A stretch of DNA of 58,033 bases. It comes from Candidatus Adiutrix sp. (GTDB lineage: Bacteria; Desulfobacterota; Desulfarculia; Adiutricales; Adiutricaceae). Below the pieces are notes generated by a model. That model was not told the DNA's origin and did not search any database. It worked only from the letters and a program-made list of their open reading frames with translations. The translations under genes were made by a program, and so were the position numbers. Location: contig JAISJK010000083.1 of assembly GCA_031261565.1 (NCBI GenBank), positions 1 through 58,033 of the forward strand, in the 5' to 3' direction. Shown one piece after another: positions 1 through 12,978 of this stretch; within the stretch, counting starts at the first letter, position 1, and each line of letters begins with the position of its first letter.

Positions 1-177
1 ACGATTTTTTTGGCGGCCAGCTCCGGCAAACACAAACTTTGAATATTAAGCCGACTTTTCGGTACAGTGACTTTTAGCGAGGCCATCATTTTGGGGATGC
101 TTTTGATCGGCGTCATCGGCAAATTCATGGATGACGCCGTCAAATTCATGGTTAAAAAATTGATCCGGTGGACTTGA
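1..177 (+). pseudogene. 3' end of ABC transporter permease (TauC/SsuC-like), truncated by the window start and containing an in-frame TGA at 40-42
   Basis: Frame 1 reads TIFLAASSGKHKL*ILSRLFGTVTFSEAIILGMLLIGVIGKFMDDAVKFMVKKLIRWT*, resembling the C-terminus of BPD_transp_1 permeases of the taurine/nitrate family on both sides of the TGA. Confidence 0.45.
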
Positions 178-953
178 AGACGGCCATGGCCGAAATCATT
201 AAAATCTCAGGGTTGAGCAAGAGCTTTGAGCGCGATGGCCAGCGGCTGGACGTGCTTAACGATATAACCCTGGGCATTGAAGAGGGGCAGATCGTCTCCA
301 TCATCGGCGGGAGCGGCTGCGGCAAAAGCACCCTCCTGCGCATTTTGGCCGGGCTGGATACCGGCTACGCGGGCCAGGCCCTATTTGAGGGCCGGGCCAT
401 TGCCGGGCCCACCCGCAAAATTGGCTTTATTTTTCAGGATCACCGCCTTCTGCCCTGGCTGACGGTGGAGGAAAATATGCGTTTCAGCCTGCCGGAGGGC
501 GAGCCGGACAAAGACGGCGTCATCAAAAAATATATTGACCTGGTGGGTCTGAAAGGCTTTGAAAAATCGTATCCCAAGCAACTTTCCGGGGGCATGGCCC
601 AGCGGGTCGCGGTGGCCCGGGCCCTGGCCAACCGGCCGGACACCCTCCTGCTGGATGAGCCCTTCGGCGCTTTGGACGCCATCACCAAAATACATCTGCA
701 GGAAGAGCTTTTATCCATCTGGAACCGCGACCCGGTGACCATGGTTCTGGTGACCCACGACATTGACGAGGCCATCTATCTAGGCCACCGGGTGGTGGTC
801 ATGACCCCCCGCCCGGGCCGTATCAAAAAAATACACGATGTCGAGCTGGGCCGGCCCAAAAGCCGCACCAGCTCCTCGTTCGTCAAGATCAGAGAAGTCA
901 TCTACAAAGAGTTTTTCGCGGAAACCGATCTGCCCTTTGCTTATACCATTTGA
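168..953 (+). CDS. ABC transporter ATP-binding protein, nitrate/taurine/sulfonate (TauB/SsuB/NrtD) type
   Basis: Walker A GGSGCGKST, signature LSGGMAQRVAVARAL, Walker B LLLDEPFGALD; overlaps the permease stop. Confidence 0.92.
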   Translation: MDLKTAMAEIIKISGLSKSFERDGQRLDVLNDITLGIEEGQIVSIIGGSGCGKSTLLRILAGLDTGYAGQALFEGRAIAGPTRKIGFIFQDHRLLPWLTVEENMRFSLPEGEPDKDGVIKKYIDLVGLKGFEKSYPKQLSGGMAQRVAVARALANRPDTLLLDEPFGALDAITKIHLQEELLSIWNRDPVTMVLVTHDIDEAIYLGHRVVVMTPRPGRIKKIHDVELGRPKSRTSSSFVKIREVIYKEFFAETDLPFAYTI

Positions 954-971
954 ATTTAAAGGAGTTTTCTT

Positions 972-3449
972 ATGCGGAGCGCTAGCGTGCTGTCCCCCCA
1001 GGAAATCAGAATTCAGGCGGAACTGAAGATTGCGCCGGGCCCGGAGGAGGCCGCCGGGCGCGCGCTGACCATCCTGAAAAGAATAAAGCAGTCCAAGCCG
1101 GTCATCGACATTGAGCGCGGGCTCTATTTCACCGAGTCGTTCCGGCGCACCGAGGGCCAGCCGCTGATCCTGCGCTGGTCGGAGGCCCTCTTGCATTACG
1201 CCCGCCGGTCCACGGTTTATATTGACGATGACCAGTTGATCGTGGGCCGGAGCGGCCAGCCGGGGCGCTATGGCATCCTCTATCCCGAGCTGGACGGCAA
1301 CCAGCTGGGCGCGGCTCTGGACAAGCTGCCCGAGCGGGCCTATTCCCCCTTTAATATTTCCGAGGAGGACGCGCGGATCATCAAAGAAGAGATCGCCCCA
1401 TACTGGCGGGGCAAAACTTTTCACGAGGATCTGGCCCAGGCCCTCACCCCGGAGACCTTCCGCCTGACCTACAACAGTGATCTGTCCTCCCGCTTCATCG
1501 TCAACGAAACCGCTTCCTTCCGCTCGTCCATCCAGTGGGTGCATGATTATGAAATAGTCCTGACCCGGGGTTTTTCCGGAATCAGGGCCGAAGCCGCCGC
1601 CAAACTGGCGGCCCTGGACGAAAACAGCCCCCTGGATTACACTGAAAAGCGCCCCTTTTGGCAGGCGGTCATCAATGTCAGCGAGGCCATCATCCTCTGG
1701 GCCGAACGCCACGCCGAGGCGGCGGAGGAGCTGGCTGCGGCCGAGCCCCATCCCGTCCGCCGGGCCGAGCTGGAGCAGATCGCCCAAATCTGCCGCCGGG
1801 TGCCCGCCCATCCGGCCCGGTCGTTCCGCGAGGCGCTTCAGGCCCAGTGGTTCGTGCAGATGTTCTCCCGCGTCGAGCAGAAAACCGGCACGGTCATATC
1901 CAACGGCCGGATGGATCAATATCTCTACCCCTACTATAGGCGGGACAAAGAGGCTGGCCTCCTGACCGACGACGAGGCCCAGGAGCTGTTCGAGTGCGTG
2001 TGGGCGGCCATGGCCCAGTTCATCGACCTGTATCTCTCGGAGACCGGCGGGGCCATCAACGAGGGCTACGCCCACTGGGAGGCGGTGACCGTGGGCGGCC
2101 AGACCCCGGACGGGCAGGACGCCGTCAACGAGCTGACCTATATCCTGCTGAAATCCAAGCGGGAATTTCCATTGAATTACCCTGATCTGGCCGCCCGGAT
2201 TCACACCCGTAGCCCCAGGCGCTATCTGCACGAGGTGGCCGAAACAATCAAGGAGGGCTCCGGCTTCCCCAAGCTGATCAATGACGAAGAGGTCGTGCCT
2301 CTGCTGCTGGCCAAAGGCGCCTCCTTTGCCGAGGCCTATGACTACAGCGTCTCCGGCTGCTCGGAGTGCCGGATGCCCAACCGCGACACCTACACCAGCC
2401 CCTGCGCTTACATCAACTTTGCCGCCGCGCTGGAGATGGTGATCTACAACGGCCGGATGTTGAAATACGGTGACGAAGCCATTGGCTTGGCGACCGGGGA
2501 ACTGGAGAGTTTTCAGACCTTCGATGATTTTTTCGAGGCCTATCTGCGGCAGCAGACCTATTTTCTGAAACACGCCTTCATCCAGCAGCACGAGATAATC
2601 CGTCTGCGGGCCCGGCATTTCGCCACGCCGCTGGGCTCCAGCCTGCACCGCCTCTGCCGCGCCAGTTGCCTCGACCTGCACCAGCCGGTCATTCCCGGGG
2701 GGATCGACCTGGGTTATTTTGAATATATCGGCTACGGCACGGTGGTGGATTCGCTGGCGGCCATCAGGGCCAATGTCTTTGAGGAAGGCCGCTTCACCCT
2801 GACCGAGCTCCGGGAGGCCATGGCCCACAATTTCGAGGGCTACGAGGTCATCAGGGCCTACCAGAAAAACGCCCCCAGCTACGGCAACAACGACCCCCGG
2901 GCCGACGAGATTGGCCGGCGTCTTGATCGCACCGCCCAGGAATTCGCGGGGAAATATTCCCGGGAACTGGGGGTCAGGCTGGATTTGCGCTATGTGCCGT
3001 TTACCTCGCATGTGCCCTTCGGCAAAGTGGTCAGCGCCTCCCCCAACGGACGGCTGGCCTTCACCCCCCTGTCCGACGGCTCCAGCGCCTCCCAGGGAGC
3101 GGATGTGCACGGCCCGACTGCGGTGCTGCTGTCCAACTTCGCCACCAAAAACCAGGATCGCAGCGAGCACGCCTCCCGCCTGTTGAACGTCAAGCTCAGC
3201 CCGGCCTGCGTCAAGGGCGCGGCAGGCACCGAAAAACTGGTGCGTTTTATCGAGGGCTGGCGCGATTTGAAGCTGTGGCACATTCAGTTTAATGTGCTGA
3301 ACCGGGAAACGCTGCTGGCCGCCCAGGCCGAGCCGGATAAATACCGCAACCTCCTGGTGCGCATCGCCGGCTACAGCGCCTATTTCACCGAGCTGACCCA
3401 GGATCTGCAAAACGACATCATTGCCCGCACCCAGCATGAGGCCCTGTGA
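972..3449 (+). CDS. Glycyl radical enzyme, sulfo-lyase (IslA/HpsG-like) candidate
   Basis: C-terminal glycyl radical motif VRIAGYSAYF (Gly800), active-site Cys motif SGCSEC (Cys463, Glu465), adjacent activase; RBS aaaggag upstream. Confidence 0.93.
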   Translation: MRSASVLSPQEIRIQAELKIAPGPEEAAGRALTILKRIKQSKPVIDIERGLYFTESFRRTEGQPLILRWSEALLHYARRSTVYIDDDQLIVGRSGQPGRYGILYPELDGNQLGAALDKLPERAYSPFNISEEDARIIKEEIAPYWRGKTFHEDLAQALTPETFRLTYNSDLSSRFIVNETASFRSSIQWVHDYEIVLTRGFSGIRAEAAAKLAALDENSPLDYTEKRPFWQAVINVSEAIILWAERHAEAAEELAAAEPHPVRRAELEQIAQICRRVPAHPARSFREALQAQWFVQMFSRVEQKTGTVISNGRMDQYLYPYYRRDKEAGLLTDDEAQELFECVWAAMAQFIDLYLSETGGAINEGYAHWEAVTVGGQTPDGQDAVNELTYILLKSKREFPLNYPDLAARIHTRSPRRYLHEVAETIKEGSGFPKLINDEEVVPLLLAKGASFAEAYDYSVSGCSECRMPNRDTYTSPCAYINFAAALEMVIYNGRMLKYGDEAIGLATGELESFQTFDDFFEAYLRQQTYFLKHAFIQQHEIIRLRARHFATPLGSSLHRLCRASCLDLHQPVIPGGIDLGYFEYIGYGTVVDSLAAIRANVFEEGRFTLTELREAMAHNFEGYEVIRAYQKNAPSYGNNDPRADEIGRRLDRTAQEFAGKYSRELGVRLDLRYVPFTSHVPFGKVVSASPNGRLAFTPLSDGSSASQGADVHGPTAVLLSNFATKNQDRSEHASRLLNVKLSPACVKGAAGTEKLVRFIEGWRDLKLWHIQFNVLNRETLLAAQAEPDKYRNLLVRIAGYSAYFTELTQDLQNDIIARTQHEAL

Positions 3450-4339
3450 GCCGCTCGGCGGTCGTTTACAATATTCAGCGCTATTCGCTGCATGACGGCC
3501 CGGGCATCCGCACCGTGGTTTTCTTCAAGGGGTGCCCGCTGCGCTGCCGCTGGTGCTGCAACCCCGAGTCGCAAAATCCGCAGCCGGAAATAGCCTGCGC
3601 CGCCTCCCGGTGCCTGGGCCAAAGCGTCTGCGGCTTATGCGCCGGGGCCTGCCCCCGCCAGGCCCTGAACTTCGGGGCGGACGGCCGGGCGGAGATTGAC
3701 CGGGCCCTCTGCGTGAACTGCCTGAAATGCGCCGAGGTCTGCCCCTCAGCCGCGCTCCGGATCGAAGGCCGGGAAACCCTGATTTCCGAAATACTGGATA
3801 CCGTGGAAGAGGACGCGGTTTTTTATCGTGGCGGGGGCGGGCTGACCGTCAGCGGGGGTGAGCCCTTTTTTCAGGGCGAGGCCCTGATTGAACTGTTGCG
3901 CGAAGCCAGGCTTCGCAAAATCAACACCGCCCTCGAAACCTGCGGCCTGGCCGATTACCATCTGGTGGCCCGGGCGGCCGCGCTTCTGGACATGGTCATC
4001 TATGACCTGAAGTCAATGGACAGCCTTAGCCATCAGCGTTTCACCGGGCAGGGCAATGAGCTGATTCTGGACAATTTCCGCCGCCTGGGCGCGGATTTTC
4101 CCGCCCTGCCCAAGCTGGCGCGCACCCCGGTAATTCCCGGCTTTAACGACACGGCCCCGGCCCTTTCGGCCATTGCGGCTTTTATAGCCGGCCAGCCGGG
4201 AGCGGCTTTCGAGGCCCTGCCCTACCACCGCTTCGGCGCGGGCAAATACGCCCTCCTGGGCCGCGATTACCCGGACTTTCCCCCATTCGACTCGGCGGTC
4301 ATGGAAAAAATAGTTGACATAGCCGCCAGATTTGGCTAA
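3446..4339 (+). CDS. Glycyl radical enzyme activating enzyme (radical SAM with two ferredoxin-type clusters)
   Basis: GCPLRCRWCCNPE (CxxxCxxC), CxxC ferredoxin-like motifs CGLCAGACP and CVNCLKCAEVCP, GGGLTVSGGEP; overlaps the GRE stop. Confidence 0.95.
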   Translation: MSRSAVVYNIQRYSLHDGPGIRTVVFFKGCPLRCRWCCNPESQNPQPEIACAASRCLGQSVCGLCAGACPRQALNFGADGRAEIDRALCVNCLKCAEVCPSAALRIEGRETLISEILDTVEEDAVFYRGGGGLTVSGGEPFFQGEALIELLREARLRKINTALETCGLADYHLVARAAALLDMVIYDLKSMDSLSHQRFTGQGNELILDNFRRLGADFPALPKLARTPVIPGFNDTAPALSAIAAFIAGQPGAAFEALPYHRFGAGKYALLGRDYPDFPPFDSAVMEKIVDIAARFG

Positions 4340-4381
4340 ATTAATAAGATAAATTGTAACTCTCTGCTGATCAATGATATT

Positions 4382-4417
4382 GAAGGCCGAAGTAATTAAC
4401 TTCGGCCTTCTTTTTTT
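4382..4417 (+). terminator. Intrinsic terminator between the GRE/activase unit and the NifB-like gene
   Basis: Perfect 12-bp stem GAAGGCCGAAGT-AATTA-ACTTCGGCCTTC followed by TTTTTTT. Confidence 0.9.
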
Positions 4418-4449
4418 ATTCTCAAACGAGGTTGAGGGCCCCTGTGGTT

Positions 4450-5298
4450 ATGAAGAATCATCCCTGCTTCAGCGGCGAATGCCGGCCAACGACCGGCCGA
4501 ATCCATCTGCCGGTCAGCCCCAGCTGCAACATCCGCTGCCGCTTCTGCGCCCGGGGGCTTTCCCCGGATTTGGCCCGGCCCGGCCAGGCGGCCAAACTGG
4601 TCACCCCCAGGGAAGCCATGGGCATTTTAGACCGGGCCATGCTGATTTGCCCCGACCTTAAAGTCGCCGGCGTGGCCGGTCCGGGCGACCCCCTGGCCAG
4701 CCCCCACGCGGTTGAAACCTTGGGGCTGATTCATCAAAAATATCCTCAGCTGATAAATTGCCTCAGCACCAATGGCCTGGCCCTGGCGGATTATCTGCCG
4801 GCCCTAATGGCGGCCGGCGTCCAAAGCCTGACGGTGACGGTCAACGCGGTTGACCCTGGAATTTTAACCCAATTGTGCGCCGGCATCGTTTGGGAAGGGG
4901 CTGACCTGGGCGGCTATGAAGGTTGCGCATTTTTGATCGCCTCGCAGCGGGAGGGGATCAGGCGGGCCCGGGCCAGCGGCTTAAACATCAAGATAAATAT
5001 GGTCGTGGCACCGGAAATAAACGGCCGCCATGTCGGCCAGGTGGCCCGGGCTGCGGCTGACTGGGGGGCCGCTTTCATCAACCTGATTCCCCTGCTGCCG
5101 GCCGGGGAGCTTTCCGGCGCGGCCCGCCCCGGGCCTGAATATATGGAAGAGGCCAATGAGGTGGCCGGGCGGCATTTACCGCCCCTGCGCCACTGCCGCC
5201 GCTGCCGGGCGGATGCCTGCGGCGTTCCAGGCCAGAGCGATTTCGCCCGGGAACTTTATCAGGATTGGGGCCCGGTGGAGACCTTTTCTCATGGCTGA
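4450..5298 (+). CDS. NifB-like radical SAM cofactor maturase (radical SAM domain only, no fused NifX domain)
   Basis: NHPCFSGECR...RIHLPVSPSCNIRCRFCARG, GVAGPGDPLASP, C-terminal HCRRCRADACG: hallmark NifB motifs. Start ambiguous (TTG 4432, GTG 4444 or ATG 4450). Confidence 0.88.
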   Translation: MKNHPCFSGECRPTTGRIHLPVSPSCNIRCRFCARGLSPDLARPGQAAKLVTPREAMGILDRAMLICPDLKVAGVAGPGDPLASPHAVETLGLIHQKYPQLINCLSTNGLALADYLPALMAAGVQSLTVTVNAVDPGILTQLCAGIVWEGADLGGYEGCAFLIASQREGIRRARASGLNIKINMVVAPEINGRHVGQVARAAADWGAAFINLIPLLPAGELSGAARPGPEYMEEANEVAGRHLPPLRHCRRCRADACGVPGQSDFARELYQDWGPVETFSHG

Positions 5299-5653
5299 TA
5301 TTTTCTCCAGCCGGCCGGGGCGGGTGGCCGTGGCCACTGAAGACGGGGTCATGATTGATTGCTGCTTTGGCCGGGCCCGGGCCTATCACATTTACGAGGC
5401 CAACGCCCGGGCCGATGGATACCATTTTATGGAAATCCGCCCCAGCCCGATCCCCTGCCGCGATCAGGATCATGACCCGGAAACGCTCAACCGGGCCATT
5501 GAGCTTTTGGCCGACTGCCAGCTGGTGCTGGCCGGCAAAATTGGCCCGGAAGCCATTCGGCGGCTGGAAGCCAGGGGCATCCCCGCTCTGGCGGTCAGTC
5601 TCTCAATGGCCGAAGCCTTTAAAAGATTGAACAAGCGCAAAAATGTAAGGTGA
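5291..5653 (+). CDS. NifX/NafY-like (dinitrogenase iron-molybdenum cofactor biosynthesis family) protein
   Basis: RVAVATEDGVMIDCCFGRARAYHIYEA...CQLVLAGKIGPEAIRRLEARGIPALAV; ATG overlaps the NifB-like stop. Confidence 0.82.
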   Translation: MADIFSSRPGRVAVATEDGVMIDCCFGRARAYHIYEANARADGYHFMEIRPSPIPCRDQDHDPETLNRAIELLADCQLVLAGKIGPEAIRRLEARGIPALAVSLSMAEAFKRLNKRKNVR

Positions 5654-5665
5654 CCAGAGAATAAA

Positions 5666-6541
5666 ATGGGTAAAAATATCAAACAAATCGCCATTTACGG
5701 GAAAGGCGGCATCGGCAAGTCGACCACCTCCTCCAACCTCAGCGCGGCCTTGGCCAGGCTGGGGTATCGTGTTTTGCAGGTGGGCTGCGACCCCAAAAGC
5801 GACTCCACCAACACCCTGCGCGGCGGCCAATATATCCCCACCGTCCTGGATACTCTGAGGGAAAAAGGCAAGGTCGCGGCCAACGAGATAATTTTTGAGG
5901 GCTTTGGGGGGGTCTATTGCGTCGAGGCCGGCGGCCCGGCCCCTGGCGTTGGCTGCGCCGGCCGGGGCATCATCACTGCGGTGGAGCAGCTGAAACGATT
6001 GCAGGTCTTTGAAGAATTAAAGATCGATGTGGTTCTCTATGATGTTCTGGGCGATGTGGTCTGCGGCGGTTTCGCCGTGCCCATTCGGGAGGGCATTGCC
6101 CAGCATGTTTTCACGGTCGCTTCATCCGACTTCATGGCTCTCTACGCGGCCAACAATCTCTTTGCGGGTATCCAGAAATACAGCGCCGCCGGCGGGGCTC
6201 TGCTGGGCGGAGTCATCGCCAACTCCATCAGCGCTCCCTACGCCAAAGCCATTGTCGATGATTTCGCCCAAAAGACCAAAACCAAAATTATTGAACATGT
6301 GCCGCGCTCCGTGACCGTCTCCCAGGCCGAGCTCCAAGGCAAAACAGTCATTGAGGCGGCCCCCGATTCAGACCAGGCCAGGGTTTATCTGAGCCTGGCC
6401 AAAAAAATATCAAAACACCATAAATCAACCACTCCGGCTCCCCTGGCCATCGCTGATTTACGCGAGTGGGCCTCCAAATGGGGGCGGGAACTCCTGCGGA
6501 TGGAGAGCGGAGAAATCAGCTCCCAAGCCGCCGGGATTTAA
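5666..6541 (+). CDS. NifH-like nitrogenase reductase (Fe protein) homolog
   Basis: [18 protein letters not shown]-loop, GVGCAGRGI and [18 protein letters not shown] ([4Fe-4S] ligand cysteines). Confidence 0.93.
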
Positions 6542-6553
6542 AAGGAGTCTTTC

Positions 6554-8026
6554 ATGAGTTATCTAGATCAGCGGGTGCCGCCCAAGCGGGAAGATCGCCA
6601 CGCGGATACCTGTCTGGCCTATGGCGGCACCATCTGCGGCGCCCAAAAACCGGGCCGGGTCTGCGCTCTGACCGCAGGAGCCGACCGGGCTTTTACCCAG
6701 GGCTCCATCTGCCCTCTCCTGCCGGCCATGGGCATTATGAGCAGCCTGCCGGACACGGTGGTGTTGATGCACGGGGCGGTGGGCTGCGGGAGTTGCGCCC
6801 ACGGCAATAACGGCAATGTCCGGGCCGGCCATGCCGCCCGCAGCGGCCAACCGGTCGATGCCCTCTGGCTGTCAACCGCGCTGAATGAAATTGATGTGGT
6901 TTCCGGAGGTGATGAAAAGCTGGCCAGAGCCATTGAAGAGATAGAGGCCGCCCATCATCCCAAGGCCATTTTCGTGGTTTCAGGCTGCCTGCCCGGCATC
7001 ATCGGCGATGATCTAGACGCTGTGGCCGCCAGGGTGCAGCCCAAAATCGCCGCTAAAATATTGCCGGTGCACTGCGAGGGCTTTAAATCGCGGTTTATGG
7101 CCACGGCCTATGACGTCATTTACCACGCCCTGGGCCGAAACCTCCTGCCGGCCCCGACTAAAAAACAGCCGCGGGAAAAGACGACCATCAACATTATGAC
7201 CGTCGGCTCCATGGGCCGGGTCGATGAGCTGGAGCTGGAGCGTCTGGTGAAAGAGCTGGGCCTGAAGGCCAATTTCTTTCCGGTCTTCTCCGACCCGGAC
7301 AGCCTGCCCCGGGCGGCCCGGGCGGCCCTGTCCGTCAGCACCTGCCCGACTCACGACGACTATTTTCTCATTCATTTAAAAGAAAAATACGGCGTGCCCT
7401 ATATCATTCGCCATATGCCCATCGGCATCGCCAACACCAGCCGGTGGCTCAGCGATATTGGCCAGCATTTCGGGCTGGGGCCTCAAGCGGCTGCTCTGGC
7501 TCAAGCCGAAGAAAAAGAGCTGGAAAAAGCTTTGGATGATTTTCGGCCTCTCTTCCAAGGCAAGCGGGTTTTTCTTTCCGCCGGCGAATACCGCTCCCTG
7601 GCCACCGCCTCGTTGCTGCGGGAGCTTGGCTTTGAGATAGCCGGCATCCGCTCTTTTCACTATGATGAATTCGCCGATGTCGAAATAGAAAAGTTGCGCC
7701 GGGAGGGTCAGGATTTTTCCTGGAGCGTGGCCAATGTCCAGCCTTTTGAGGAAGCCAACCTTTTAAAGCGCATCAAGCCCGATCTCTTTCTCGGCCACTG
7801 GCACGGCAACAACAATGCCGCGCGCCTGGGCATCCCGACCCAGGTCATCTACAACACCGGCTTCGGCTACATCGGCTACCGGGGCGCCTATGACCTGGCC
7901 AGGCGTCTAGATCGCAAACTCAAAAATACGGCCTTTACCGACCGCCTCGGGCGTTACGCCGGGCTGCCCTACCAAAAATCCTGGTATAGGCGCGAGCCGT
8001 TTTCCCTGATTCGATCCCGGGCCTGA
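6554..8026 (+). CDS. NifD-like nitrogenase-family alpha subunit (not canonical NifD)
   Basis: Cys53, HGAVGCGSC (Cys78), VVSGCLPGIIGDD (Cys145) as P-cluster ligands; STCPTHDDYFLIHLKEKYG (Cys264) aligned to the FeMo-co Cys275 region; VHCEGFKS conserved. Confidence 0.9.
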   Translation: MSYLDQRVPPKREDRHADTCLAYGGTICGAQKPGRVCALTAGADRAFTQGSICPLLPAMGIMSSLPDTVVLMHGAVGCGSCAHGNNGNVRAGHAARSGQPVDALWLSTALNEIDVVSGGDEKLARAIEEIEAAHHPKAIFVVSGCLPGIIGDDLDAVAARVQPKIAAKILPVHCEGFKSRFMATAYDVIYHALGRNLLPAPTKKQPREKTTINIMTVGSMGRVDELELERLVKELGLKANFFPVFSDPDSLPRAARAALSVSTCPTHDDYFLIHLKEKYGVPYIIRHMPIGIANTSRWLSDIGQHFGLGPQAAALAQAEEKELEKALDDFRPLFQGKRVFLSAGEYRSLATASLLRELGFEIAGIRSFHYDEFADVEIEKLRREGQDFSWSVANVQPFEEANLLKRIKPDLFLGHWHGNNNAARLGIPTQVIYNTGFGYIGYRGAYDLARRLDRKLKNTAFTDRLGRYAGLPYQKSWYRREPFSLIRSRA

Positions 8027-8037
8027 GAGAGCCTATT

Positions 8038-9372
8038 ATGAGTACCGCTATTGAACGACCCCGCTGGACCTGCGCTTTGGGCGGCGCTTTGGCCGCCGCC
8101 GCCGCCCTGCCCCGCACGGTGCCCATCATCCATGCCGGCCCTGGCTGCGCCGCCAACTTCGCCTGGACTCAAAACGGGGCCTCCGGCCTCCAGGTGGGCG
8201 GGCCTTGCGCCGCCCTGGCCTTTCCCGGCACCAATCTTCAGGAAAATGAAGTCGTTTTCGGCGGCGCGGAGCGGCTGGATGAGGAAATTGAGCAAACCCT
8301 CAAAATCATGGACGGCGATTTATATTTCGTGCTGACCGGGTGCGTGCCCGAAGTCATCGGCGATGACGTGGACAGCGTGGTGCGTAAATACGCCCACCGG
8401 GGCGTGGCCATCACTTCGGCCTCAACCGCCGGCTTTAAAGGCAATTCCTATTTCGGCTATGAAGAAGTGCTCAAAACGCTGTTTGCCAAAGTGCTTAAAA
8501 CCAAACCGGGCCGGCGGGAAAAGACGGTCAATGTCTGGGGCCTGCCGCCCATGATGGACGTATTTTGGAAGGGCAATCTGGCCGGGGTCAAAGACCTCCT
8601 GGGGCTTTTGGGCTATAGAGCCAACGTCTTTTTTGGCCCGGGCGCCAGCCTTGAAGAAATCGAAAACGCGGCCGGGGCGGAACTGAACATCGTGCTGTCC
8701 GATGTTTACGGCCTGGAAGCGGCCCGGCTGTTTAAAAAAATTCATGGGGTGGACTTCATCAGCCTTCCCCCGCCCTTCGGCGCCGCCGCCTCGGATCGCT
8801 TTCTCAAGCTGGCGGGGCGGCGCCTGGGCCTGCCGGCCCGGAAAATATCGGAAATCATCAAGCGGGAGGGCCGCCGCCATTACGAATTTCTCGAGCCCCT
8901 GATTGACGTGTATAACGATATGGAAGGGCAGCGCTACGCCATCGTCATCGGCGACGTCAACTATGGCTGCGCCGTCGCCGATTTTCTCACCGATGATCTG
9001 GGCTGGCTGGCGGATCTGGTTTTCGTCACCGACGACCTGAGCGACGATGAGCGGGCCAGCCTGGATAAAGCCAGATCGGCCAGGGCCCGGCCCCGCCCGG
9101 AGATCATCTATGAGAGCCGCGCCGGGGCTATCGCCGAAAAAATAGACGGCCGTTGGCGGCCATCGTCGACCAAATACCATAACAGCCGCCGGCCGGCCTT
9201 TGTGGCCGGCAGTTCCCTGGATCGCGCTCTGGCCGTCTCCCTGGGCGCCCCCCATTTAAGCCTATCCTTCCCGGTTTCCAACCGGGCGGTGTTAAACCGG
9301 GGCTATACCGGATATGACGGAGGTCTGCGGCTCATGGAAGATGTTATCAGCTCAGCCATCCTGATGAGATGA
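8038..9372 (+). CDS. NifK-like nitrogenase-family beta subunit
   Basis: RWTCALGGAL...IIHAGPGCAANF and VLTGCVPEVIGDDVDSV match NifK P-cluster cysteine motifs; directly follows the NifD-like gene. Confidence 0.88.
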   Translation: MSTAIERPRWTCALGGALAAAAALPRTVPIIHAGPGCAANFAWTQNGASGLQVGGPCAALAFPGTNLQENEVVFGGAERLDEEIEQTLKIMDGDLYFVLTGCVPEVIGDDVDSVVRKYAHRGVAITSASTAGFKGNSYFGYEEVLKTLFAKVLKTKPGRREKTVNVWGLPPMMDVFWKGNLAGVKDLLGLLGYRANVFFGPGASLEEIENAAGAELNIVLSDVYGLEAARLFKKIHGVDFISLPPPFGAAASDRFLKLAGRRLGLPARKISEIIKREGRRHYEFLEPLIDVYNDMEGQRYAIVIGDVNYGCAVADFLTDDLGWLADLVFVTDDLSDDERASLDKARSARARPRPEIIYESRAGAIAEKIDGRWRPSSTKYHNSRRPAFVAGSSLDRALAVSLGAPHLSLSFPVSNRAVLNRGYTGYDGGLRLMEDVISSAILMR

Positions 9373-9394
9373 CGAAGCAGCCGAGGTCCAATTA

Positions 9395-10345
9395 ATGGAT
9401 AGATTAAAACAGTGGCGGCCGCTAGGGGCCATTATTCTGGCCCTGGCTCTGGATAAATATCTGCCGGACAGCTCGCAGCACCCGCCGGTGGAGGAGCCCT
9501 ATTTAACCTATGCCCTCATCCTGCTGGCCCTTATTTTCGGCCTGGCCCCTCTGAGCCGCCGATTTTCCGCCGCGTTCAGCGAAAAAATAAAAGAGAAGGC
9601 CGATTTTTACGCCGTCTTTTTTTTATTTCTGAACCTGTGGAATGTGGTCACCAAGAAATATTGCCTCCTCCCGGCCATATTTTTCCCCAACCCGGATCGC
9701 ATTTTGAGCGTCTTAGTTGAAGATTACCACTATTTGTTCGTTGATTGCCTGGGGTCTTCAGCCAAACTGCTGCTACTGGGTTTCGTCAGCGGAGCCGCAG
9801 TGGGTCTGCTCACCGGCATCGCGGTGGGGTTCAGCAAAAAGGCGGCTTACTGGGTCAACCCCATCATCAGGATTCTCGGCCCCATGCCCCCCACCGCCTG
9901 GATACCGATTGTCCTGGTGGCTTTCCCCTCCACTTTCCAGGGCGCGGTTTTCCTCATCGCCCTGTCGGTCTGGTTTCCCACGACCATCATGACGGCCAGC
10001 GGCATCCTCAACGTCCAAAACGCTTTTTTTGAAGTCGCCAGCACTTTGGGGGCCGGCCGGTCTTACCAGATTTTTCACGTTGGTATTCCAGCGGCCATGC
10101 CTTTCATCTTCATCGGCATTTTTACGGGCGCCTGCGCCTCTTTCATCACCCTCATGACCGCCGAGATGGTGGGCGTCAAAAACGGCATCGGCTGGTATAT
10201 AAACTGGCAGCGGCAGATGCTCTCCTATGCCAATGTCTATGCCGGGCTAATTATTATCGCCCTGAGTTTTTATTCTTTGATCACCCTCCTTTTTAAAATG
10301 CGCGACCATGTCCTGGTCTGGCAAAAGGGCGTGATTAAATGGTAG
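9395..10345 (+). CDS. ABC transporter permease, TauC/SsuC/NrtB-like, with N-terminal extension
   Basis: Multi-TM protein with GILNVQNAFFEVASTLGAGRSYQIFHVGIPAAMPFIFIGI EAA-type loop and ITLMTAEMVGVKNGIGWYI. Confidence 0.88.
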   Translation: MDRLKQWRPLGAIILALALDKYLPDSSQHPPVEEPYLTYALILLALIFGLAPLSRRFSAAFSEKIKEKADFYAVFFLFLNLWNVVTKKYCLLPAIFFPNPDRILSVLVEDYHYLFVDCLGSSAKLLLLGFVSGAAVGLLTGIAVGFSKKAAYWVNPIIRILGPMPPTAWIPIVLVAFPSTFQGAVFLIALSVWFPTTIMTASGILNVQNAFFEVASTLGAGRSYQIFHVGIPAAMPFIFIGIFTGACASFITLMTAEMVGVKNGIGWYINWQRQMLSYANVYAGLIIIALSFYSLITLLFKMRDHVLVWQKGVIKW

Positions 10346-11121
10346 CCGGGCAAATCAGAATCGAGGATGTGGTTAAAATATTCCGGCATCACGATGGCCA
10401 GGAAACCAGGGCCCTCTCCGGAATCGATTTCACTGTGGAGGCCGGAGAATTCGTCTCCCTCATCGGGCCCTCCGGCTGCGGGAAGTCCACCCTGCTCCGT
10501 CTCATCGCCGGCCTGGAAGAGGCCAATTCCGGCGCTCTATACCTGGACGGCCAAAAAATCACCCGGCCGGACGCCCAAAGAGGCCTGGTTTTTCAAAACC
10601 CCTACCTTTTCCCCTGGCTGACGGTGCAGGCCAATGTGTCCTTTGGCCTGAAAGCCCGCAAAGTTTACCGGGAAAAGAAAGACGAGGTGAAAAAGTTTTT
10701 GCATCTGGTTGGTCTGAAGGATTTCGGGCAGGTCTATCCCCACCAGCTCTCCGGGGGCATGGCCCAGAGGGCCAGCCTGGCCCGAGCCCTGATCAACCGC
10801 CCCAGAGTGCTGCTGCTGGACGAGCCCCTGGGGGCCCTGGACGCCTTTACCCGCATGAATATGCAGGATGAGATTCTGCGCATCCGCCAGGAGGAGCAAA
10901 TCACCATGATCATGGTCACCCATGACGTTGATGAAGCCATCTATCTCTCGGATCGGATAGTGATCATGACCCCGGGGCCGGCCAAGATCGAAACCGTTAA
11001 AAAGGTGCCCTTCCCGCGCCCCCGGGCCCGCAGCTACCCTGATTTTTTGCGCCTCAGGAGCGATATCCTGAATATCCTCAACTTCGGCGGCCACCTTGAG
11101 GAGCCGCCCTATCAAATCTAA
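10339..11121 (+). CDS. ABC transporter ATP-binding protein, nitrate/taurine/sulfonate type
   Basis: Walker A GPSGCGKST, LSGGMAQRASLARAL, LLLDEPLGALD; overlaps the permease stop. Confidence 0.93.
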   Translation: MVAGQIRIEDVVKIFRHHDGQETRALSGIDFTVEAGEFVSLIGPSGCGKSTLLRLIAGLEEANSGALYLDGQKITRPDAQRGLVFQNPYLFPWLTVQANVSFGLKARKVYREKKDEVKKFLHLVGLKDFGQVYPHQLSGGMAQRASLARALINRPRVLLLDEPLGALDAFTRMNMQDEILRIRQEEQITMIMVTHDVDEAIYLSDRIVIMTPGPAKIETVKKVPFPRPRARSYPDFLRLRSDILNILNFGGHLEEPPYQI

Positions 11122-11135
11122 GCCAAGGAGAAATT

Positions 11136-12134
11136 ATGAAGAAAATCATCATCGGTGCTCTGGCCCTCGCGGCCCTGACTCTGCTGCTCTCGTCTGACCA
11201 TCAGCTGCGGGCCGCTGAAGCCAAAAAATTGATTAAAGTCGGCTATACCGGCTCGCTTTGCGAAGGCCCCCTGCACATCGCCATTGAAAAAGGTTTTTTT
11301 GCCGAGGAAGGCCTGGAGGCCGAAGCCATCAGGCTGGCCCCGGGCACCAATTTCGAGGCCATCACCGCCGGCCAGATTGACGCCAGTTTCGGGCTTTTAG
11401 CCACCCTGATTCAGCCGCTCTCCAATGGTCTGCCGATCAAAATAACCACCGGTCTCCACACCGGTTGCGACAAAGTGCTCGTGCCGGCCGGCTCCAGCAT
11501 CAAAACTGCGGCTGATTTCAAAGGCAAGCGCATTGGCGTGCCCAGCCTGACCAGCAGCCCCATCATGTTCGCCAAGCGGGTGCTGGCCGCCGCCGGGGTC
11601 AAAGTCGGGGACAAGGATTCGGAAGTGGAATTCATCGTCTTTTCCAATGCGGAGTTGCCGCTGGCCCTGGAAAAAGGGGCGGTGGACTCCATTTCGGCCA
11701 ACGACCCCGTGGCCTCTCTGGCCGCCCATAAAAATGGGCTGACCATTCTGTTCGATTCCGCCAAAACTCCGCCCTACAATAACCAATATTGCTGCGCCGC
11801 CTATGTCAGCGCCAAACTGGCCGAAGCTGACCCCGACACAGCGGCCAGATATACGCGGGCCATGCAAAAAGCCGCCGCCTGGATTCAGAAAAACCAGGAT
11901 GAGACCGCCAAGATTCAGGTGGACAACCACTATGTGGCGGGCGACCCGGTTTTCAACGCCGGCGTTTTGAAGACTTTTAACTATATCCCCTCGGTCAAAG
12001 GCGCCTATGAGGCTTTCGGCACCACCGCCCAGGAATTGCAGAAAATCGGGGTGTTAGGGGAAAAGACCAATGTCAATGATCTGCAGAAAAACAGTTTCGC
12101 TTTTCTGGCCGGAGTGGAAGACAGCGTGAAATAG
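11136..12134 (+). CDS. ABC transporter substrate-binding protein, NrtA/SsuA/TauA-like (NMT1/THI5-like fold)
   Basis: Signal peptide; KVGYTGSLCEGPLHIAIEKGFFAEEGLEAEAI...GKRIGVPSLTSSP. Confidence 0.88.
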   Translation: MKKIIIGALALAALTLLLSSDHQLRAAEAKKLIKVGYTGSLCEGPLHIAIEKGFFAEEGLEAEAIRLAPGTNFEAITAGQIDASFGLLATLIQPLSNGLPIKITTGLHTGCDKVLVPAGSSIKTAADFKGKRIGVPSLTSSPIMFAKRVLAAAGVKVGDKDSEVEFIVFSNAELPLALEKGAVDSISANDPVASLAAHKNGLTILFDSAKTPPYNNQYCCAAYVSAKLAEADPDTAARYTRAMQKAAAWIQKNQDETAKIQVDNHYVAGDPVFNAGVLKTFNYIPSVKGAYEAFGTTAQELQKIGVLGEKTNVNDLQKNSFAFLAGVEDSVK

Positions 12135-12219: not shown

Positions 12220-12978
12220 TCAGGGCAGGGTGTAGCCGTAGGAAAGGATAATGTCCCTGGCCTTGGGGCTTTTAAGGTAGTCGGCAAAGGCCTGGACGGC
12301 CGCGTTATTAGCCGCGCTTTTCAGGATAACCGCGTCCTGGATAATGGGTTTGTGGAGGTTGCCCGGCACCTGCCAGACCGAGCCTTTGGTGAGTTTGCCA
12401 TTGCGGCAGACCTGAGACCAGGCCACGAAGCCGATGTCGGCGTTGCCGCTGTCAACCAGCTGTAAAGTCTTGCCGATGTCATTGCCCGTGACGATTTTTT
12501 TGGCCTTTTGCAGAGGCTCCAGCAGATTCCAGGCTTTCAGCACCTCGTAAGCGGCCTTGCCGTAGGGGGCCAGATCAGGGTCGGCCACGGCCAGATACTT
12601 GAACTTGTCGGTCTTGAGAACCTCGCCCAGATCATCGACAAAGCCCTTTTGAGCCGACCACAGAGCCAGGGCCCCTTTGGCGTAGGTGAAGCGGCTGCCA
12701 GGTTTGGTCAGGCCATCCTTTTCCAGGTTTTTAGGCGTTTTGGTGTTGGCGGCCAGGAGGATGGAGAAAGGCGCGCCCTGGCGAATCTGGGTCTCAAAAC
12801 CGCCGGTGGGGCCAAAGATCAAAACAGCCCGGTGGCCGGTTCCCTTTTCAAAGGCGGCGGCAATGGCCTTGGACGGCTCGGTGAAATTGGCAGCCACGGC
12901 CACCTGAAATTCGTCAGCCTGCGCCAGGGCCGGCCAGATCAGAAAGACGGCAACCAACGCTAAAAGCAATTTTTTCAT
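12220..12978 (-). CDS. modA: Molybdate-type ABC transporter substrate-binding protein (ModA-like), orphan
   Basis: Signal peptide; VAVAANFTEPSKAIAAAFEKGTGHRAVLIFGPTGGFETQIRQGAPFSILLAA...LALWSAQKG...GKAAYEVL. Confidence 0.85.
   Translation of the reverse strand: MKKLLLALVAVFLIWPALAQADEFQVAVAANFTEPSKAIAAAFEKGTGHRAVLIFGPTGGFETQIRQGAPFSILLAANTKTPKNLEKDGLTKPGSRFTYAKGALALWSAQKGFVDDLGEVLKTDKFKYLAVADPDLAPYGKAAYEVLKAWNLLEPLQKAKKIVTGNDIGKTLQLVDSGNADIGFVAWSQVCRNGKLTKGSVWQVPGNLHKPIIQDAVILKSAANNAAVQAFADYLKSPKARDIILSYGYTLP

Follow-up and report, generated by a model that had tools for sequence, protein, structure and literature searches.

A nitrogenase-like enzyme with an apparently differently held cofactor, encoded in a sulfonate-type operon of a termite-gut Candidatus Adiutrix

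Among proteins of solved structure, the one described here, NflD, is closest to MarD, the D subunit of methylthio-alkane reductase (Mar, MarBHDK). The [Fe8S9C] cluster of Mar is held by Cys270 and His429, the latter in an extended loop that is absent from nitrogenase; Trp195 and Phe199 replace nitrogenase Gln191 and His195, there is no equivalent of His442 in its nitrogenase place, and N2 is not reduced (PMC12552129). Isethionate reductase (Isr) is encoded in Rhodobacter capsulatus by isrBHDK together with ssuCAB; IsrD has a single P-cluster cysteine and no equivalent of Cys275, and IsrB resembles NifB in its radical SAM motif only (PMC11423573). A further group of nitrogenase-like genes, group IV-A (NfaHDK), lies near type I mlp gene clusters (PMC10418091, PMC9147875). 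The role of this group is debated. Published work already ties it to sulfur: its genes are placed near sulfur methyltransferase clusters (PMC10418091), and a termite spirochete is reported to have group IV nifDK genes together with cysteine synthase (PMC13067680). One report, as cited in PMC9147875 and PMC11257099, has the group IV-A system of Endomicrobium proavitum supporting N2 fixation.

The window, that is, the whole stretch of DNA analysed here, comprises 58,033 nucleotides from a termite-gut bacterium of the Candidatus Adiutrix lineage (assembly GCA_031261565.1, contig JAISJK010000083.1). It begins at base 1 of its contig (C20), and 1-167 precedes the first ABC ATPase gene; upstream genes, perhaps a permease and a binding protein, are therefore out of view. 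Eleven genes, all on the + strand and at most about 110 bases apart, occupy 168 to 12134 in the following order.

168..953, + strand: ABC ATPase of the sulfonate/nitrate/taurine type (SsuB-like copy 1); NCBIfam matches below equivalog cut-offs
972..3449, + strand: glycyl radical enzyme of the isethionate sulfite-lyase (IslA) type; structure matches, residues and NCBIfam
3446..4339, + strand: radical-SAM glycyl radical enzyme activase; NCBIfam PFLE_PFLC, 300.6 bits (cut-off 174)
4450..5298, + strand: NifB-like radical SAM protein (NflB, B); TIGR01290 nifB, E 3.8e-61, below cut-off
5291..5653, + strand: NifX/NafY-type cofactor-carrier domain protein (X); Pfam Nitro_FeMo-Co, 55.5 bits
5666..6541, + strand: NifH-like reductase (NflH, H); TIGR01287 nifH, 401 bits (cut-off 394)
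6554..8026, + strand: NifD-like catalytic (alpha) subunit (NflD, D); ORF, Pfam, phmmer, MAFFT and AlphaFold2 model
8038..9372, + strand: NifK-like subunit (NflK, K); closest solved chain MarK
9395..10345, + strand: Ssu/Tau-type ABC permease (SsuC); family matches, ortholog adjoining NflDK across the window subclade
10339..11121, + strand: Ssu/Tau-type ABC ATPase (SsuB); family match below equivalog cut-offs
11136..12134, + strand: SsuA-family substrate-binding protein; NMT1 family, TIGR01728 SsuA_fam, 109.9 bits (cut-off 163.5, not reached)

NflD is read from an intact frame of 490 aa and matches Pfam Oxidored_nitro with 287 bits (cut-off 28.6); at 153.9 bits it misses the NCBIfam nifD equivalog cut-off of 653.55. 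NflB, whose start codon is uncertain (4432/4447/4450), carries all six NifB motifs (HPC, CxRP, CxxxCxxC, AGPG, TxTxN and CxxCRxDAxG). NflH has the P-loop and both [4Fe-4S] cysteine motifs, and NflK has Cys12, Cys37 and Cys102 at the P-cluster ligand positions. Besides NflDK, the operon holds no further component-1 genes. Contig C57 of the same genome has four of them, one of which (L074_7790) bears the Gln, His195 and His442 motifs of a true NifD. A separate canonical nif set (locus L074) is thus located on another contig. Because NflB has NifB-like motifs, because the operon lacks other component-1 genes and because a nif set resides elsewhere, an [Fe8S9C]-type cluster free of Mo and homocitrate, by analogy with Mar, would be the likeliest cofactor of NflD.

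Among solved chains, the best phmmer match of NflD is MarD of Rhodospirillum rubrum (9fmg/9d9u, E 1.6e-64), and the best nitrogenase chain follows at E 2.3e-35; NflK is closest to MarK (E 6.3e-75). A sequence-only reading that preceded this analysis had compared NflD with Azotobacter NifD and had missed that Mar is the nearest solved relative. The superposition on Mar and NifDK structures that it proposed was carried out, at the level of overall fold, with an AlphaFold2 model (mean pLDDT 91.9): the top match is 9fmg_A (TM 0.86/0.90, rmsd 2.5 A), and NifD is more distant (about 0.73), with 22-25% identity between NflD and NifDs in the structure alignments.

The residues of NflD that bear on the metal clusters are as follows.

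6710..6712, + strand: Cys53, P-cluster ligand position (NifD Cys62); invariant in 135/135 nitrogenase-like homologues
6785..6787, + strand: Cys78, P-cluster ligand position (NifD Cys88); invariant among nitrogenase-like homologues
6986..6988, + strand: Cys145, P-cluster ligand position (NifD Cys154); invariant among nitrogenase-like homologues
7097..7111, + strand: Met182 to Tyr186, in place of NifD Gln191 and His195; alignments
7343..7360, + strand: Cys264-Pro-Thr-His-Asp-Asp, cofactor cysteine position and clade signature; class A conservation
7796..7798, + strand: His415, predicted second cofactor ligand, equivalent to MarD His429; alignment and conservation
7802..7804, + strand: His417, at the NifD K426 position; lineage-specific (17/101 of class A)
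7850..7852, + strand: Tyr433, at the NifD His442 position; Phe in 56 and Tyr in 43 of the 101 class A sequences

Much of this had been proposed from the letters alone, and most of it stands. The motifs quoted for NflD (VHCEGFKSRFMATAY, STCPTHDDYFLIHLKEKYG, GIPTQVIYNT and HWHGNNNAAR) are all found in its translation, and the codons assigned to Met182 (7097-7099), Tyr186 (7109-7111), Cys264 (7343-7345) and Tyr433 (7850-7852) are correct. Both phmmer alignment to solved NifD chains and a MAFFT alignment of 137 homologues pair Gln191 with Met182, His195 with Tyr186, Cys275 with Cys264, and His442 with Tyr433. The loss of the three nitrogenase residues is thereby borne out, as is the retention of the P-cluster and cofactor cysteines (Cys53, Cys78, Cys145 and Cys264), all of which align with NifD ligands. 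NflD consequently resembles Mo-nitrogenase (NifHDK) in fold, P-cluster cysteines and the Cys275 equivalent, and differs from it at Gln191, His195 and His442.

The loss of His442 itself needs a different reading. That histidine is absent from its nitrogenase place; however, Mar holds its cluster by a histidine of another loop, so a lost His442 need not mean a lost histidine ligand. In NflD, His415 is paired with MarD His429 by MAFFT and likewise by hhalign with a Mar-type profile. It lies at a strand-to-helix junction of the AlphaFold2 model, is conserved in all 101 class A sequences and has an equivalent in 20 of the 21 Mar-type ones. It is reasoned from alignment and conservation that His442 has probably been replaced and not lost, with His415, in preference to Tyr433 or His417, as the likely ligand. 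The pairing of K426 with His417 was positionally right, but the residue to follow is the nearby invariant His415. Two other candidates for the ligand were dropped: His417, found in 17 of the 101 class A sequences, and Tyr433, since Phe stands there in more than half of them (56/101).

The homologues come from two sources, 61 related genomes and a bacterial and archaeal genome scan (80 loci); in the alignment of 137 sequences three residue classes correspond to three clades. Class A (101 sequences, including NflD) has no insertion before His415, carries Tyr186 throughout and has the signature Cys264-x-Thr-His267-Asp268-Asp269, in which C264, H267 and D268 are each present in 101/101 and D269 in 98/101; position 267 is Leu in all Mar-type sequences. 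Position 182 varies within the class (Met 57, Trp 18, Val 14, Gln 8), and Met182 is therefore a local state. Class B (21 sequences, including MarD) has an Arg inserted before the His; all of its members have Trp in place of Gln191 and Phe in place of His195. In class C (13 sequences) the Arg position is taken by Cys and the His position by Pro. A profile-profile alignment of classes A and B pairs the same loop histidines, and each of the three classes forms one strongly supported group in a 46-sequence tree.

NflD is similar to Mar in its B-H-D-K operon, P-cluster and cofactor cysteines, loop I histidine and overall fold, and Gln191, His195 and His442 are lost in both. The equivalents of Mar Cys270 and of the P-cluster cysteines are all present. 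In contrast, Arg428 of the Arg428-His429 pair, a proposed hallmark of Mar, has an equivalent in 21/21 Mar-type and 0/101 class A sequences; Met182 and Tyr186 stand where MarD has Trp195 and Phe199; and the THDD after the cofactor cysteine, the Ssu-type importer and the IslA gene in the operon are features of the NflD side. The NflD clade is separate from that of MarD, and forcing NflD into the Mar group, a constraint picked after the first tree was seen, was rejected (AU p 0.000303). Membership of NflD in Mar is rejected by that tree result together with the missing Arg428, Trp195 and Phe199. A sulfonate-type ABC importer (here at 9395-12134) encoded next to nitrogenase-like genes is common to this locus and to Isr. 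IsrD lacks two P-cluster cysteines and the cofactor cysteine, whereas NflD keeps all four, and IsrB is not NifB-like, whereas NflB matches nifB with six motifs; membership in Isr is ruled out by the cysteine pattern.

NflD does not stand alone and is a member of a large multi-phylum clade, with class A hosts in Bacillota, Spirochaetota, Planctomycetota, Synergistota, Myxococcota and Thermodesulfobacteriota. It probably belongs to group IV-A of the literature. Paenibacillus and corrinoid-cluster-linked members fall within class A, and group IV-A is set beside class A by its published description. On that description, MtaA-type, corrinoid and RACo genes in class A loci are a shared trait, and the linkage to an Ssu importer and IslA is a difference, being absent from the portions of PMC10418091 and PMC9147875 that were drawn on.

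The operon context of NflD is sulfur and not nitrogen. The first ATPase (168..953) has the SaoA, nitrate, taurine and sulfonate ATPases as its best NCBIfam matches. The permease, ATPase and binding protein at the other end are of the sulfonate/taurine type by family, with equivalog cut-offs not reached, and SsuCBA lies 3' of DK throughout the window subclade wherever the contig is long enough. The glycyl radical enzyme is nearest to isethionate sulfite-lyase: its best solved relatives are 5ymr (1182 bits) and IslA 7kq3 (61% identity), ahead of 6lon (1091 bits), and it passes the NCBIfam HpsG-type model (1442 bits, cut-off 1000). It keeps R189, Q193, W374, C468, E470, R678, F682 and G805 of IslA, among them all of the isethionate-binding residues as given in PMC8473560; at F682, where 6lon has Ile, it keeps Phe. 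The best equivalog match of the activase is HpsH-type (380 bits, below the cut-off of 430). The enzyme therefore agrees with isethionate sulfite-lyase IslAB in its binding residues and differs in being encoded in one run with nitrogenase-like genes. Close IslA-type homologues occur in 19 of the 61 related genomes, but beside Nfl genes such a gene was found, in a search of these genomes, only in the window, and it thus says little about the substrate of the clade. Were isethionate the substrate of IslA, the reductase might serve a different compound.

Across class A, a sulfur marker lies within 8.5 kb at 84 of the 101 loci, a raw count taken without a formal chance control; the remaining 17 have none within reach, and some of these are on short contigs. 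Counted in the same way, the neighbours are CysK (48 loci), the Ssu permease ortholog (35), an MtaA-type methyltransferase (25), a corrinoid protein (18), RACo activase (16) and MetY (10). In Gorillibacterium timonense (L119), for example, the order is B-X-H-CysK-K-D-SsuC-SsuB-SsuA. In the window subclade no CysK adjoins DK; in the window's genome, cysteine synthase is encoded on contig C111.

Since the cluster is apparently held differently from that of nitrogenase and the operon is of the sulfonate type, the enzyme is probably for C-S cleavage and not for N2 fixation. The explanation that we favour, as probable if not secure, is that NflDK is an uncharacterised group IV-A-type reductase, neither nitrogenase, Mar nor Isr, with an [Fe8S9C]-type cluster, bound through Cys264 and His415, at which C-S bonds of an organosulfur compound would be cleaved after import. 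The gene identities, ligand residues, clade and neighbourhood are read from the sequences, and the type of cluster, its ligation by His415, the reaction and the substrate are inferred. The Ssu-type importer would take up a polar organosulfur substrate, with a sulfonate as the likeliest candidate. NflB, aided by the NifX-like carrier, would build the cluster without Mo or homocitrate, and the cluster would be seated in the D subunit between Cys264 and loop I His415. NflH would pass ATP-driven electrons via a P-cluster bound by Cys53, Cys78 and Cys145 of D and Cys12, Cys37 and Cys102 of K; reductive C-S cleavage at the cluster would then supply sulfur for cysteine and methionine synthesis. In the window's genome the IslA-type lyase would offer a parallel route from sulfonate to sulfite. 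A bolder proposal, put forward tentatively, is that the whole clade may be a further functional kind of nitrogenase-cluster enzyme, one that would use ATP to desulfurise sulfonates, or polar organosulfur compounds akin to them, after their import, on a cluster of this kind, with the THDD residues near the substrate and the sulfur passed to cysteine synthase.

Two other sulfur chemistries have to be weighed. The NflD system could be a functional methylthio-alkane reductase with a slightly different pocket, releasing methanethiol from thioethers for methionine salvage. Mar is the closest solved relative and has the same B-H-D-K order, Trp occupies the Mar Trp195 position in 18/101 class A sequences, and corrinoid-methyltransferase genes, which PMC10418091 ties to methionine salvage, lie near 25/101 loci. 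We nevertheless find this rather unlikely: NflD falls outside the Mar clade (AU p 0.0003) and lacks Arg428, Trp195 and Phe199, a dedicated importer is conserved here although Mar substrates are volatile, and Mar-type paralogues adjoin clade members within one genome (L050-L054, L056), a pattern that points to separate functions. It is similarly doubtful that the system does the job of Isr by a different enzyme, with a sulfonate in and sulfite out. The arrangement is in principle that of R. capsulatus isrBHDK and ssuCAB (PMC11423573), and an IslA-type lyase sits in the same operon; that lyase, however, would make a second isethionate enzyme redundant, and NflD is not Isr by sequence, with its four cysteines and NifB-like protein kept (Isr features from PMC11423573).

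Reduction of N2 by an alternative nitrogenase of the group IV-A type fits the retention of all cysteines needed for large clusters, and the diazotroph E. proavitum is reported to have no nif-like genes other than those of group IV-A (PMC9147875, PMC11257099). We consider it improbable for NflD, given the absent equivalents of Gln191, His195 and His442, the canonical nif set elsewhere in the genome, the sulfur-gene neighbours, and Mar, which has similar losses and does not reduce N2 (PMC12552129). The sequence-only reading had likewise argued for an altered or differently ligated cofactor and against N2 reduction; the former agrees with Mar, and the case against N2 reduction remains an analogy. 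Least probable of all, and hardly to be expected, is that NflDK is a maturation scaffold like NifEN and no catalyst. NifE gives the best NCBIfam match of D (178 bits, against a cut-off of 505), and NifB-like and NifX-like proteins are encoded alongside, yet fold and sequence group NflD with Mar and not with NifE, no second, catalytic DK pair in need of maturation is encoded in the operon, and the importer and sulfur genes suit a catalyst.

If the C-S cleavage favoured here holds, it would add to Mar and nitrogenase a further example of how a nitrogenase-type cluster can be tuned, here towards C-S chemistry. Surveys of nif genes in termite guts and sediments would then call for caution, because genes of this kind can end up in the count of nitrogen fixers. 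The clade includes the named isolates Gorillibacterium timonense, Anaerocolumna aminovalerica, Geomonas edaphica and Sporobacter termitidis. The signature (Tyr186, CxTHDD and His415 without Arg) and the sulfur neighbourhoods occurring in named isolates make the question directly testable.

Several side observations follow. Directly past the operon, on the opposite strand, lies a gene for a modA-type molybdate-binding protein (12220-12978, - strand). Genomes of the related family have up to seven D-like matches each, and at L050, L051, L052, L053, L054 and L056 Mar-type and NflD-type DK pairs adjoin. A 76%-identical copy, in the same B-X-H-D-K-SsuCBA order, is present in a MAG named Planctomycetota (Nc350_bin215, L078), either by recent transfer or through a mis-binned contig. 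On contig C80 of the window's genome (G000; L157, L159), a sulfite reductase-family gene is clustered with ThiF/MoeB-like and cysteine synthase-like genes. The class C loci (L060 to L071, and L100 with D at 6014) keep all P-cluster cysteines and the cofactor cysteine, and their loop I has Cys-Pro (SCPFQG) in contrast to the Arg-His of the Mar type; one of them, L062, has an operon with an SsuA-family protein and several Ssu/Tau-type permeases.
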